Shown one piece after another: positions 52,434 through 59,944 of a stretch of DNA of 64,000 nucleotides. The stretch's first letter is position 1, and every line of letters begins with the position of its first letter. The stretch is from Alphaproteobacteria bacterium. GTDB lineage: Bacteria > Planctomycetota > Phycisphaerae > UBA1845. Both the position numbers and the translations under genes were made by a program. Below the pieces are notes generated by a model, which did no database searches, was not told where the DNA came from, and saw nothing but the letters and a program-made list of their open reading frames with translations. The stretch spans positions 372,001 to 436,000 of the forward strand of contig JANQQE010000024.1 of the NCBI GenBank assembly GCA_028285105.1, read 5' to 3'.

Positions 52434-53192
52434 TCAACCGAGATTCAACGTCGGATCAACCACAGTCCCGCATTCCGGACAGACGCCGCTTTCATTGCCC
52501 GTTAAATCGTAGTCGCAAATCGGGCAGATGCTCCCGTCGTTGATCACCTTCTTCCATCGGAGCAATTGAAATGCGCGTACCGTCGGATAGAGAACCACCG
52601 GTATGGTCAGCACCAAGTAGATGATGTCGGTTACGACGTTTCCAAAGCGCGATGTGATCAGGATCGAGCCGATCAGCACGGGCATCAGGCATAGCAGAAA
52701 TACCGGAATCGCACCGAGCACCGCAGCCGCGGTCGGCCAACGCTTTCGGCGATAGACTTCGCCTGGTGCGAACGAGCGTTGCTCACCGGCATCCGCAACC
52801 CAGAGAAAACCTGTCGGAATCATCGCAACCATGAATAGACACCAAAGTGGCATCGACATGGTCCAGACGCCCAGCATGTTGTTGTGAAAGCGCGGCCACC
52901 AATGGCGTTTCGCATTGCTGGCGCGGCGCACCGGACCGACACGGAAACCAATCCTTGATCGGCTCGAATACTTGCTGATCGCAAACCGGCCATTCGAGAT
53001 CGCCATCGACAGGCACATGCCATTCTTGACCGGACCGCCCGCCACCACTTGATAAGCATCATTCGGATACGCCAGCCGCCAACTGATCCACCAGCATTCA
53101 CTCAACGGCCAACTAATCAAAAGCAGCGCACATACAGCGAGCATTGACCACTTAGCCACACGTCTAAGTTTCGCCAATGTCGGCCAACTCAT
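52434..53192 (-). CDS. membrane protein with C-terminal zinc ribbon
   Basis: 252 residues. Membrane segments at SMLAVCALLLISWPLSECWW, MSMPLWCLFMVAMIPTGFLW, VLGAIPVFLLCLMPVLIGSI and DIIYLVLTIPVVLYPTV, then the ribbon CPICDYDLTGNESGVCPECG, with 10 residues beyond it. The ATG at 53192 overlaps the stop of the preceding gene (ATGA). Last gene of a coupled trio running from about 54.1 kb. Confidence 0.75.
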   Translation of the reverse strand: MSWPTLAKLRRVAKWSMLAVCALLLISWPLSECWWISWRLAYPNDAYQVVAGGPVKNGMCLSMAISNGRFAISKYSSRSRIGFRVGPVRRASNAKRHWWPRFHNNMLGVWTMSMPLWCLFMVAMIPTGFLWVADAGEQRSFAPGEVYRRKRWPTAAAVLGAIPVFLLCLMPVLIGSILITSRFGNVVTDIIYLVLTIPVVLYPTVRAFQLLRWKKVINDGSICPICDYDLTGNESGVCPECGTVVDPTLNLG

Positions 53193-53677
53193 ACTACCGT
53201 CCCGCATTCCGGACAGATGCCGCTTTCATTGCCGGTCAAGTCGTACTTGCAATTCAAGCACGCATCAGGGTACCGCCACAGAATCCAGCGCTTCCGCAAG
53301 ACAAGATACCATGCCACGATGATCAAAAGGAAAAACGTGGGCGGCCAGAGTGGAATCCTGATTTGAAACAATCCCGATTTATTGATTCCGTAGAAGTGAT
53401 CTGGAAGCCAATGGGTGGATAGGTTAGTAAAGCCATGAACTCTGATCCATGGCCGATCGGGCACCATCACTCCATGTTCCTCTTGCATGGCCGCAACGAT
53501 CATCGACTGCGCATACATTCGAGCTGACGGTTCTGTTCACGAAACATAACCGTGATCGAGGAACACCATGTTGTCGTCGGGCGCAAAAATAAGAATTCGC
53601 CAATAGCTCGCCGTCCAAAGCCCGCAAATTAGAAGCAGCAACACACCGGCAAATCTGAATCGAAAGTTGCGAATCAC
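53189..53677 (-). pseudogene. zinc-ribbon membrane protein interrupted by an in-frame TGA
   Basis: The frame opens with GTG at 53677 overlapping the upstream stop (GTGA). It encodes a signal-anchor (FAGVLLLLICGLWTASYWRI) and hits TGA at 53539-53537 after 46 codons, in LDHGYVS-stop-TEPSARMYAQS. It then continues without another lesion through a membrane segment (PPTFFLLIIVAWYLVL) to the ribbon CLNCKYDLTGNESGICPECG. The part after the stop could restart at ATG 53518, giving 109 residues without the first anchor. The layout matches the intact paralogue next door, so a recent nonsense mutation is the simplest reading; a sequencing error is possible. Confidence 0.7.
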
Positions 53678-54099
53678 GTCAAGGTCCCGCATTCCGGACA
53701 AACACCACTAACGTTTCCAGTTAAGTCATAATCGCACTCAACGCAAATTCCTACTTGTCGCCGCTTTCGCCATATGAATAGATAGCAAACGATCAGCATC
53801 AGAAAAGTCGGCATCCAAAGCGGAATGGTAAATCGAGTCATGCCATTGGGATAACGTTGATGAAAGTCTCTCGGTATCCAATGCGTTTCAAAACCGTCAA
53901 AGCCAGCGAACTTCCATGTCTCGTCAAACGGCCACAGCATGTCGATAGACTTCCAGAGTTGCCGTAGCTTCTCGTCTGGGCGAATCCAATCGATACATCC
54001 ATGGGTCAACCAAATCTGGTCTTGGGAAGGTGGATAGAATCCGATTCGACAATAGCTCGCGATCCATGCCGCACCAAAGATCAGAAGCAAGCCGACCAC
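53674..54099 (-). CDS. membrane protein with C-terminal zinc ribbon
   Basis: 141 residues. N-terminal anchor (GLLLIFGAAWIASY), an extracytoplasmic part rich in Trp/Tyr (DETWKFAGFDGFETHWIPRD), a second membrane segment (WMPTFLMLIVCYLFIW), RKRR and the ribbon CVECDYDLTGNVSGVCPECG. It is a paralogue of the next gene and, more distantly, of those at 59519 and 63274. GTG at 54099 is the only standard start available; comparison with paralogues suggests about 11 more N-terminal codons, up to a stop, so the original start may be lost or non-canonical. Confidence 0.7.
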   Translation of the reverse strand: MVGLLLIFGAAWIASYCRIGFYPPSQDQIWLTHGCIDWIRPDEKLRQLWKSIDMLWPFDETWKFAGFDGFETHWIPRDFHQRYPNGMTRFTIPLWMPTFLMLIVCYLFIWRKRRQVGICVECDYDLTGNVSGVCPECGTLT

Positions 54100-54404: not shown

Positions 54405-55199
54405 ATGAACGATTGCGTCGTCATCCTCGCTGGTGGACAGGGAAGTCGCCTTCGGCCTTATACGACCGTGCTGCCGAAACCTCTGATGCCGGTGGGCGAT
54501 GTGCCGATTCTTGAAGTGCTGGTCAAACAGCTTCGTTCACTTGGATTGAAGCGGCTGATCTTCGCGACGAACTACCGCGACGGACTCCTGCGATCCTACT
54601 TCGGAACGGGCCAAACGCTTGGCGTTGACATCACCTATTGCAAAGAGAACCGCCGGCTTGGAACGGTGGGACCGCTGCACCTGATCGCCGACGAATTACC
54701 GCAATCGTTTCTGGTCCTGAACGGCGACATTCTCACCGACCTGAACTACCGCGCACTGCTCGATGAGCACAAACAATCCGGCGAACTGCTGACGCTTGGA
54801 ACATTTCGCCGCAAGCTGAAAATCAAGGACGGCGTCCTCGACCTCGACGATGCCGGGCGCGTCGCTGCATTCCGCGAGAAACCGACACTTCCATTGACGA
54901 TCTCGCTCGGCGCGTATGCGATGGATCGCGGGATTCTCGATCTTATACCTCCGGATGTACCATACGGCATGGACGAATTGGTGCTTTCAATGCTGGAGCG
55001 CAACCTTCCCGTCAACACGTACCACCACGATGGCCTTTGGCTGGACATTGGCACACCCGGCGACCTTGAGAAAGCCAACGAATTGTTCGCATCCAAAAAA
55101 AGAACGTTCCTCGGAATCAATGCAGTCACCCTGCTCCACTCCAATAGCGACGAGCCACAGAACGAATGTACGCAACCGCTGCAAGGAGTCGTCATATGA
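54405..55199 (+). CDS. sugar-phosphate nucleotidyltransferase
   Basis: 264 residues. It begins CVVILAGGQGSRLRPYT, the nucleotide-binding signature of glucose-1-phosphate thymidylyl- or mannose-1-phosphate guanylyltransferase-type enzymes, followed by LPKPLMPVGDVPILE, VLNGDILTDLNY (metal Asp) and LWLDIGTPGDLEKANEL. It activates a sugar phosphate as NDP-sugar. The nucleotide and sugar cannot be read from sequence. The ATG at 54405 is preferred over 54381. It is translationally coupled (ATGA) to the dehydratase downstream, which probably uses its product. Confidence 0.9.
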   Translation: MNDCVVILAGGQGSRLRPYTTVLPKPLMPVGDVPILEVLVKQLRSLGLKRLIFATNYRDGLLRSYFGTGQTLGVDITYCKENRRLGTVGPLHLIADELPQSFLVLNGDILTDLNYRALLDEHKQSGELLTLGTFRRKLKIKDGVLDLDDAGRVAAFREKPTLPLTISLGAYAMDRGILDLIPPDVPYGMDELVLSMLERNLPVNTYHHDGLWLDIGTPGDLEKANELFASKKRTFLGINAVTLLHSNSDEPQNECTQPLQGVVI

Positions 55200-56185
55200 A
55201 TCTCGCGGGCAAACGAGTCCTCATCACAGGCGGGACCGGATTCATCGGATCGCACCTTGCCGAGATGCTCATCGAAAGTGGCTGCCAGGTGCGTGTGCTT
55301 GCCAACTACAAGAGCATGCCCAGTTGCGGCAACCTCGAACACGCCGATCAATACGTCCGCGACGAAATCGAAGTCGTCTGGGGCGATGTCACCGATCGTG
55401 ATTCCGTTATGAACGTAGTCGATGGTATGTCGGTTGTGTTCCACTTGTCGGCGCTGATCGGGATACCTTATTCGTACATTGCGCCGTCATCGTACGTACA
55501 GACCAACATTGTTGGAACCCTCAACGTGTTGCAGGCGTGTCGGGCGCACAGTGTCGAACGCATGGTACATACTTCGACTTCCGAAACCTTCGGATCGGCA
55601 CAGTACACGCCGATGGACGAAAAGCACCCGCTTGTCGGTCAATCGCCCTACTCAGCCACCAAGCTCGGTGCCGACAAGCTCGCCGAAAGCTTCGCGTGCA
55701 GTTTTGAAATGCCCGTCGTCACCGTTCGGCCATTTAACGTTTTCGGACCCCGTCAATCCGATCGCGCGATCATCCCCACGATCATCGCCCAACGCATTGC
55801 CAGCGAAGATCCCGTACGCATCGGCGATCCATCGCCGCGCCGCGACTTCACGTTCGTCACCGACACCGCCCGAGGGTTCATCGCTGCCGCCCAATGCGAC
55901 GAAGCCATCGGCCAAACGTTTAACATCGGCAGTGGCAAGTCGATCTCCATCGGCGAGTTAGCCGACACGATCTGCGAATTGACGGGCGGTGGGTCATTCA
56001 TCAGCGAGTCGCAGCGCATCCGACCCGAAAAAAGCGAAGTCAATGAACTGCGTTGCGACAGCACGTTGGCGCAATCAGTTCTCGGATGGTCGCCATTGGT
56101 AACCCTGACCGAAGGCCTCACCGAAACCATCGAATTCATGCGGAAACATACCGACATGTTCGCCCCGCTTGAGTATCGCGTGTAG
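55196..56185 (+). CDS. NAD-dependent 4,6-dehydratase, LegB-like (extended SDR)
   Basis: 329 residues. GxxGxxG is in VLITGGTGFIGSHLAEML. The catalytic Tyr-x3-Lys is in SPYSATKLGADKLAESF and the Ser/Thr triad segment in HTSTSETFGSAQY. The stretch VFHLSALIGIPYSY and TNIVGTLNVLQACR is characteristic of LegB-type enzymes, which act on nucleotide-linked GlcNAc at the start of legionaminic or related sugar synthesis. AAGGAG precedes the ATG, which overlaps the upstream stop by 4 bases. Its own stop lies inside the REP-like element at 56180. No legC/G/H/I genes are present, so the end product is unknown. Confidence 0.88.
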   Translation: MNLAGKRVLITGGTGFIGSHLAEMLIESGCQVRVLANYKSMPSCGNLEHADQYVRDEIEVVWGDVTDRDSVMNVVDGMSVVFHLSALIGIPYSYIAPSSYVQTNIVGTLNVLQACRAHSVERMVHTSTSETFGSAQYTPMDEKHPLVGQSPYSATKLGADKLAESFACSFEMPVVTVRPFNVFGPRQSDRAIIPTIIAQRIASEDPVRIGDPSPRRDFTFVTDTARGFIAAAQCDEAIGQTFNIGSGKSISIGELADTICELTGGGSFISESQRIRPEKSEVNELRCDSTLAQSVLGWSPLVTLTEGLTETIEFMRKHTDMFAPLEYRV

Positions 56186-56272
56186 GGTCCGCTGTGCGGA
56201 CCGCTGCGAGCTCCTCGCGCTGCTGGTACTGATGCCCAACGAAACCAATGGTCCGCACAGCGGACCCTACAC
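56180..56272. repeat. REP-like element: 23-base inverted repeat of nested palindromes
   Basis: The arms 56180-56202 and 56250-56272 are perfect inverted copies, separated by 47 bases. Each arm is itself a hairpin: GGTCCGC-TGT-GCGGACC and GGTCCGC-ACA-GCGGACC. The middle holds GCGAG-CTC-CTCGC. This is the layout of paired REP sequences (BIME). It overlaps the stop codon of the dehydratase gene and ends 12 bases before the glycosyltransferase start. Confidence 0.8.
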
Positions 56273-56284
56273 TGGAGCCCTACT

Positions 56285-57301
56285 GTGCCTACCGTTTCCG
56301 TTGTTGTACCTACTTATAAGCGCGTTCAGTACCTTGGTCGAATGATCGATTCTGTCGTCGCGCAGACCCATACCGATTGGGAACTCATCATCGTTGATGG
56401 AAAATCCAATGACGGAACTGCCGAACTGGTAGAAAGCTATCAAAAGTTATTGGGCGACAAAATCGTTTTCATCGAACAAGAGAACGCTGGCTGCTGTATT
56501 GCAAGAAACACCGGAATCGATGCCGCCCGCGGCGATTTTGTTGCATTACTTGATTCAGACGATGAGTTTCTGCCCACCAAGCTTGAGCATCAGATGGAAC
56601 TCTTTGACCGCGAACCATCTCTAGGCTTCGTATTTGGCGACTACTCCTACGTCGATCTGGAAGGCAACTTTGAATCAAGTATGTTCGACACCAAGTCGAA
56701 GGTTCTTCGAACCATCCCAACAAACGAAATCGCACCCAACCTTCACATCTGCACGCCGGACTTCTTCTCGTATCTATTGAAAGAGTACTTCGTCGCCACA
56801 ATTGTCGGTGTGGTTCGCCGCGAGGTGCTTGCCAACGACATACGCTTTTTGGAGCATGACCTTTACGGTTGCGAGTGGATGTTCTATCTGGAAATCGCCA
56901 ACCGCTGTCGTGCGGGTTTCGTCGATGAGCCGCTTTGTTTACACCACTATGTCGATGGCAGCCTCTCGCGCACATCGCGAACGCGCAACACGATTTACCA
57001 TCGCCGATTGCTCAAGACGATTATCGACCGATTCCCGAACTTGACCGAATCGCAGTCAAAGGAAGTAAATCTACAGTTGGCCAACACCTGTAGCCAACTC
57101 GGCTACGAGAGTTACAAGGCCAAAGAATACGGTCCGGCAATGGGTTACTTCCGTGAAGCCATGCAAGCCCGCCCCACCGCAGCATCAGCTGTACACTGGG
57201 CCCAATCGCTCCTCCGCCGCACCGCAGCTCTAGATCGCCCCGGAAACGAGCCCATGCTCCGCAACGACGCTTACCGCAATCCCACAAGTATCACAAACTG
57301 A
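56285..57301 (+). CDS. glycosyltransferase family 2
   Basis: 338 residues. GT-A fold: VSVVVPTYKRVQYLGRMIDSV, ELIIVDGKSNDGTAELV, NAGCCIARNTGID, and the metal motif ALLDSDDEFLP (DxD). It transfers a sugar from an NDP-sugar, likely in surface polysaccharide or glycan assembly with the two upstream enzymes. The start is GTG at 56285. Residues ~255-310 are helical (QLGYESYKAKEYGPAMGYF), like a TPR. The last 20 residues (PGNEP-x-L-x-NDAYR-x-P...) recur at the end of another reading frame at 62463-62525. Confidence 0.9.
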   Translation: MPTVSVVVPTYKRVQYLGRMIDSVVAQTHTDWELIIVDGKSNDGTAELVESYQKLLGDKIVFIEQENAGCCIARNTGIDAARGDFVALLDSDDEFLPTKLEHQMELFDREPSLGFVFGDYSYVDLEGNFESSMFDTKSKVLRTIPTNEIAPNLHICTPDFFSYLLKEYFVATIVGVVRREVLANDIRFLEHDLYGCEWMFYLEIANRCRAGFVDEPLCLHHYVDGSLSRTSRTRNTIYHRRLLKTIIDRFPNLTESQSKEVNLQLANTCSQLGYESYKAKEYGPAMGYFREAMQARPTAASAVHWAQSLLRRTAALDRPGNEPMLRNDAYRNPTSITN

Positions 57302-59518: not shown

Positions 59519-59944
59519 CTACCCAATTACTTCAATGGGTGTTCCACACTCGGGACAGATACCACTCTCGTTTCCACTAAGATCATACACACATTTCCAG
59601 CACTTTCCCGGAAGTATTCGGCTGGACCACCAAAGCCAAATCGTCACAGCAAGCGCCGGCATAAATAGCATCCAAAACGGAATCGTTGTGTACCCGCTGT
59701 TCCACTTGTATGAAGGCCAATGCTTCCACACGCCAAGCGGTCTCACGTCAACCCGCAAACCAGATGCCTTGGTCTGCCCATGCGTATAGAATTCAAAGGC
59801 ACCCTGTCGCAGGAACACGTGAAACCGGCGGCTGCCGTACATGACATGATAAACGCTGGAAATGACCCAACCGGTTGCCAAAAGCACGCACAGAACAATG
59901 CCAATCCGCATGAAGATTCGGCGGATAAAGAAGGGTCTTTTCAT
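59519..59944 (-). CDS. membrane protein with C-terminal zinc ribbon
   Basis: 141 residues. Basic start (MKRPFFIRRIFMR), membrane segment IGIVLCVLLATGWVISSVYHV, extracytoplasmic part with RFHVFLRQGAFEFYTHG and WKHWPSYKW, membrane segment FWMLFMPALAVTIWLWW, and the ribbon CWKCVYDLSGNESGICPECG. It is a close paralogue of the gene at 63274-63708. It follows the endonuclease/MAM gene on the same strand after 96 bases. Confidence 0.78.
   Translation of the reverse strand: MKRPFFIRRIFMRIGIVLCVLLATGWVISSVYHVMYGSRRFHVFLRQGAFEFYTHGQTKASGLRVDVRPLGVWKHWPSYKWNSGYTTIPFWMLFMPALAVTIWLWWSSRILPGKCWKCVYDLSGNESGICPECGTPIEVIG

Follow-up and report, generated by a model that had tools for sequence, protein, structure and literature searches.

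The dehydratase and glycosyltransferase genes in the window (i.e., the whole 64-kb stretch of DNA that was analyzed) are separated by a REPIN, in which a spacer lies between two inverted GTAG-type REPs. Very probably, this element was inserted into a gap of ~30 nt in an ancestor of the genus, presumably by a REP-associated tyrosine transposase (RAYT), and has since been inherited vertically, with the TAG of one REP taken as the dehydratase stop codon. The result is a well-documented REPIN/RAYT case, probably from a planctomycete, combining a dispersed repeat family, a cognate transposase encoded by sister species, a copy at an orthologous site that can be dated against gene divergence, and a junction that is free of the element.

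Structure of the element and its dispersed family

The features of the junction are as follows:

55196..56185, plus strand: NAD-dependent epimerase/dehydratase, upstream gene (GDP_Man_Dehyd PF16363, 229 bits)
56180..56272, no strand: REPIN, two inverted GTAG-type REPs and a 47-nt spacer
56182..56202, plus strand: left REP, GTAG tag and 7-bp hairpin (GTAGGGTCCGCTGTGCGGACC)
56183..56185, plus strand: dehydratase stop codon (TAG), part of the left REP's GTAG tag
56203..56249, no strand: spacer, poorly conserved in the orthologous-site comparison with G001, G002, and G004
56250..56270, minus strand: right REP, same sequence as the left REP (GTAGGGTCCGCTGTGCGGACC)
56285..57301, plus strand: family 2 glycosyltransferase, downstream gene, GTG start (PF00535, 128 bits)

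The left arm (GTGTAGGGTCCGCTGTGCGGACC, 56180-56202) is followed, after 47 bases, by its exact reverse complement (56250-56272), and each arm is itself a hairpin of the form GGTCCGC-3 nt-GCGGACC, confirming the perfect 23-base inverted arms with 7-base stems noted in a preliminary description. GTAG starts at 56182 and is followed by the 7-bp stem with its 3-nt loop, an arrangement mirrored on the minus strand from 56270. Two inverted arms, each with a GTAG tag on its outer side, constitute the REPIN anatomy of the GTAG superfamily. The REPIN is extragenic, sitting between two open reading frames (ORFs), and it occupies 87 of the 99 nt from the dehydratase stop to the glycosyltransferase start. 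As had also been described, the dehydratase stop lies inside the first arm, its ORF ending at 56185. The dehydratase start codon at 55196 is our choice, the longest ORF beginning at 55166, and a GGAG at 56274-56277 is, from its sequence, a possible ribosome-binding site for the glycosyltransferase. With spacers of up to 150 allowed, no other perfect inverted repeat with arms of at least 14 is found in the window, and in 20 first-order Markov resamplings of the window, arms of 16 arose in none and arms of 14 in one.

The preliminary description had called the element REP/BIME-like and had proposed counting its copies, uniqueness in the genome being the result that would speak against this reading. 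The arm pattern TAGGGTNCGCNNNGCGNACC has 66 matches in the 4.81-Mb assembly of the genome that contains the window (the own genome, G000), 37 forward and 29 reverse, a tally that counts one palindromic place on both strands, compared to 0 for a reversed control pattern. The sequence is therefore not unique, and the call stands, more exactly as a REPIN. The window's exact arm (an identical 20-mer) accounts for 56 of the matches, with 4 loop variants and 6 with GCGC stems making up the others; a stricter GTAG/CCGC form gave 60 matches (control, 0). Relaxed matching in the fetched own-genome loci yielded 51 clusters, with at least two arms in 36 and a single arm in 15 (counted by eye), and the spacers across these clusters are ~16-47 nt long, with no obvious common sequence as judged by eye. 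Six own-genome matches, including C10:360433-360494, C10:572264-572326, C23:108126, and C27:191245, belong to a minor REP family whose stems are of the GCGC type (TAGGGTGCGCTGTGCGCACC).

The family is present in all four congeners, with 47 arm matches in G001, 71 in G002, 220 in G003, and 41 in G004. Among relatives, the arm pattern was found in 24 of 59 (25 of 60 with the own genome included), and among other genomes from the class and phylum, the stricter pattern was found in 8 of 293, the own genome again being counted on top in the original tally. The distribution is accordingly common near home and patchy beyond.

The element resembles the head-to-head dimers of the GTAG REP superfamily as set out in the parts of Di Nocera et al. 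(2013, PMC3733652) drawn on here, which have a GTAG tag, a short GC-rich stem, and GTAG on the outside, and lie near gene 3′ ends. In those parts of the paper, spacers of the dimers are mostly 20-100 bp, the REP termini often give a TAG stop to flanking ORFs, and Planctomycetes are named among the hosts. Unlike in the present case, the string GGGTCCGC is absent from the main text of that paper, and the data on how the element persisted at an orthologous site and on which members of this genus have the RAYT go beyond the parts of the paper compared, coming from the present analysis.

The junction in related genomes and the dehydratase stop codon

A REPIN is found at the orthologous junction in three of the four congeners (G001, G002, and G004); in the fourth, G003, a dehydratase match was absent at E 1e-60. 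Across all six pairings of the own genome with G001, G002, and G004 and of these with one another, the arms agree at 41-42 of 42 positions. The spacers are much less alike, the own spacer sharing 29/48 aligned columns with that of G001, 29/48 with that of G004, and 12/47 with that of G002, and the remaining pairings giving 37/48, 10/48, and 12/48. For comparison, identity at the third codon positions of the dehydratase is 57-61% for every pairing except G001/G004, for which it is 88%.

In two other genera, the junction lacks the element. Gene order is kept in G013, which is from another genus and has 0 matches to the arm pattern genome-wide, where a TGA stop is followed by a 31-nt gap, and in G017, which is from a further genus and has 33 REP matches elsewhere, where a TGA stop and a 27-nt gap precede a glycosyltransferase-like start. 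Because G013 and G017 share this gene order without the element, we infer that it was inserted at the junction. In G018, where the stop is TAG, the next gene after the dehydratase differs.

The preliminary description had also suggested that the insertion may have changed the C terminus of the dehydratase, which was not borne out. The REP's TAG is the dehydratase stop in G000, G001, and G004, while in G002, a native TAA ends the gene 15 nt ahead of the left REP. Regardless of the stop codon used, i.e., with the REP's TAG, with the upstream TAA, and in relatives without the element at the stop, the protein ends in ...YRV in seven of the seven genomes read, out of 11 with a match (G366, G007, G010, and G360 are not in the count), so the C terminus is not altered in these seven genomes.

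We propose that a non-autonomous mobile repeat, consisting of two inverted GTAG-tagged REP hairpins, entered the gap of ~30 nt that separated the dehydratase gene from the glycosyltransferase gene in the genus ancestor. It would presumably have been mobilized by a RAYT, an HUH/tyrosine transposase recognizing the window's REP; physical pairing of RAYT and REP is seen in relatives (see below). Following insertion, the element would have been inherited vertically at the junction, and some lineages may have lost the short stretch that separated the native stop from the REP, such that the TAG of GTAG became the stop while the protein end was unchanged. Insertion followed by loss of the intervening bases is the simplest order of events, and the one that we infer for the direction and order of the stop change. 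The orthologous spacer of G004 (L133:3381-3473) holds TAACGACG, an octamer equal to the native stop of G002 and the bases after it, which may be fortuitous or may record how the left arm reached the stop.

Placement at gene 3′ ends was also examined genome-wide, with open frames used as an approximation to genes. For 76 own-genome arms with an intact TAG, this TAG closes open frames of at least 200 codons in 14 cases, compared to 0 and 2 for the other frames, and for 31 arms in stretches of G002, the corresponding counts are 6, 0, and 1. GTAGGG strings outside REPs in 1.2 Mb of G002 also end frames, with 19 of 236 closing long frames and 3 and 10 in the other frames, so the excess of REPs at frame ends is only modest. 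Given this enrichment of the control, frames ending in TAG are to be expected anyhow, and REP-supplied TAG stops have been published; a proposal that stop codons are a specific target of REPs was dropped.

To place the junction in context, other own-genome sites were compared with 1.2 Mb of the about 5.4 Mb of G002. At least one flank match was obtained for 21 of 50 elements compared, and 15 sites, some with guessed end points, were hand-picked for display. Both flanks could be aligned at nine of these (sites 0, 1, 2, 6, 9, 31, 42, 45, and 49), with one or more arms of the same family in G002 at eight and another GTAG REP family at one; at the other six, an arm is visible at sites 25 and 27, and no clear arm is present in the displayed stretch at sites 11, 13, 24, and 29. 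Scoring of arm identity at six sites gave 201/210 arm positions and 69/173 spacer columns, with no pair obtained for site 2; site 6 (36/42) was kept in the arm total, although the script probably chose the wrong partner arm there. Vertical inheritance is therefore not peculiar to the focal junction, as far as a small, hand-picked sample can indicate.

At one gene end common to the own genome (L002:1454-1527) and G002 (C30:25117-25272), the former has a CCGC-family REPIN and the latter a GGGC-family REPIN; the last residues of the upstream frame are kept, one genome using the REP's TAG as the stop and the other using TGA. One REP family may have supplanted the other, or the site may be a hot spot. 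Elsewhere in the own genome (L072:2187-2251), a single REPIN supplies TAG to convergent open frames of 622 and 175 codons at its two ends, with both TAGs also present in G002.

The cognate RAYT

The preliminary description had proposed searching for a RAYT gene, and the outcome was mixed: REP-flanked RAYTs turned up in congeners and other relatives but not in the own assembly. NF047646 (REP-associated tyrosine transposase) genes scoring 178-193 bits have the window's REP on both flanks, one in each of four genomes:

L149: RAYT flanked by the window's REP in G002 (same genus)
L154: RAYT flanked by the window's REP in G001 (same genus)
L144: RAYT flanked by the window's REP in G014 (same family)
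L163: RAYT flanked by the window's REP in G038 (same order)

These are 4 of 61 scanned RAYT or Y1_Tnp loci, some of which end at contig ends. The remaining RAYTs of G001, G002, and G038 are flanked by different GTAG REPs (GTAGGGTGGGCCGTGCCCACC; GTAGGGTGGGTTGAGCGCAGC). Six aligned RAYT proteins keep the motifs P-[DE]-HLH and DYIH-NP, which we take to be the catalytic HUH and tyrosine.

In a scan with a RAYT alignment, 9 of the best 80 of 562 confirmed loci have arms within 2 mismatches of the window's REP. Among these nine, L250, L251, and L263, from Planctomycetota MAGs, have the CCGC form, repeating the RAYT-REP pairing at three named loci, and the other six have ACGC or GCGC stems. Judging by these neighbors, the organism of the own genome is probably a planctomycete. 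RAYTs of this clade in Methylococcales-type genomes (L254, L256, and L262, with L253 on one side only) are flanked by GTAGGGTACGC...GCGTACC REPs, whose head is identical to that of the window's REP and whose stem differs by one base pair. The sequences suggest that stem and RAYT change together across phyla.

The arrangement resembles that of RAYT-associated REPs in the portion of Nunvar et al. (2010, PMC2817692) considered here, where rayt lies between oppositely oriented REPs, with REPs near or directly after the rayt stop, and where GTAG-tagged REPs such as GTAGGGTGGGC... are given for Haemophilus. The words planctomycet, Rhodopirellula, and Blastopirellula are absent from that paper, and the window's stem is absent from the table rows examined. 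In G002 (L149:2067-2070) and G001 (L154:1384-1387), the stop of the cognate RAYT gene itself is the TAG of the adjoining REP.

In the own assembly, which is 97.84% complete, no cognate RAYT was found by a Pfam Y1_Tnp search or by a search with the G002 RAYT protein. The Pfam search returned a single match of 23 bits, at the cut-off, at locus L061, which was also the best match of the G002 protein, with 26% identity and a TAA in the matched frame. L061 was rejected as the cognate RAYT on the basis of this low identity, the in-frame TAA, and an ORF without a Pfam match at E 0.001; the window's REP family is also absent throughout its 3.3-kb locus. In both G001 and G002, the RAYT is neighbored by a gene that we read as a CAAX-type protease; the own-genome match of this gene (C1:237123) begins just past the RAYT cassette. 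On the opposite side of the cassette, sequence is not common to the own genome, G001, and G002, not even between G001 and G002. An intact cognate RAYT was likewise not found in the assemblies of G003, despite its 220 arm matches, or G004, both of which are fragmented; G004 has short RAYT pieces only, up to 58% identical and near contig ends.

The REPIN population therefore appears to be orphaned in the own genome, and since no cognate RAYT was found in the assembly, current mobility there would require the gene to be within the ~2% that the assembly lacks. The REPIN/RAYT system as presented in the sections of PMC8049555 ("How sequence populations persist inside bacterial genomes") compared here likewise has two inverted REPs and a highly diverse spacer, with RAYT as the duplicator, while its repeat sequence and host lineage differ. 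According to those sections, Escherichia coli genomes without RAYT still keep many REPINs, resembling the apparent state here, and because such RAYT-less genomes are in print, the absence of RAYT from the own genome does not disqualify the element as a REPIN. Both REPs that give TAG stops and REPINs without RAYT are already in print.

Predicted RNA folding and alternative readings

The preliminary description had anticipated a very stable RNA structure between the two genes that could lower expression of the glycosyltransferase. The predicted fold of 56165-56300 agrees with such a structure, with a minimum free energy of -66.8 kcal/mol and z = -5.67 compared to 200 dinucleotide-preserving shuffles. 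The mRNA would thus carry a long hairpin starting at the stop codon, which might influence either gene. In E. coli, according to the part of PMC12306157 relied on here, REPs at most 15 nt from the stop can lower translation, and by this rule, the predicted effect would fall first on the upstream dehydratase.

Near-identical arms beside a diverged spacer could reflect either RAYT-dependent turnover, since halted here, or selection on the hairpin. Selection would be expected if the element were a domesticated expression device, in which the hairpin at the stop codon pauses the terminating ribosome, shields the upstream mRNA, or adjusts how strongly the glycosyltransferase is translated, the arms being kept by selection on the RNA. 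We consider this possible, if doubtful. While the arms at this fixed junction are conserved far beyond third codon positions as the spacer changes, the same uniformity is seen in arms at dozens of unrelated loci, as evident from the identical 20-mer noted above, and recent transposition or turnover suffices to explain this without local selection. Domestication would fit the strong predicted fold and the negative search of the own assembly for a cognate RAYT, which could otherwise homogenize the copies, but arm variation is too low for compensatory changes, and the sole change, in the right arm of G004, disrupts a single pair in the long hairpin and sits in the loop of the short one. It is also conceivable, though in our estimation unlikely, that in this genus the transposon-derived hairpin is now a host part, with REP-borne TAG stops being retained at particular gene ends and selection via the terminating ribosome or the message, not the transposase, keeping the arms identical after RAYT loss.

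GC-rich inverted repeats in an intergenic gap might also point to an intrinsic terminator separating the two genes. This is highly improbable and was rejected, as a hairpin with a T run was not found on the coding strand, there being no terminator-like site on the plus strand and a single consensus match on the minus strand, where shuffles average 0.7; moreover, the sequence is a genome-wide dispersed repeat. To a chance palindrome or an assembly artifact we attach practically no credence, given the 66-match family with its control of 0, the element at the same junction in three other species, and Markov resamplings that rarely give comparable arms; the copy number and resamplings led us to reject a chance palindrome. 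Our best estimate is that the element is a tolerated, vertically inherited mobile repeat, for which a mild effect on expression is possible. With near-invariant arms set against a drifting spacer, and no cognate RAYT found, this case lends itself to the question of whether the transposase is required for the arms to stay identical.

Elsewhere in the window, small ORFs on the minus strand (52434-54099 and 59519-59944) end in a common, zinc-ribbon-like YDLTGNxSGxCPECGT tail and are perhaps a local paralogue family.
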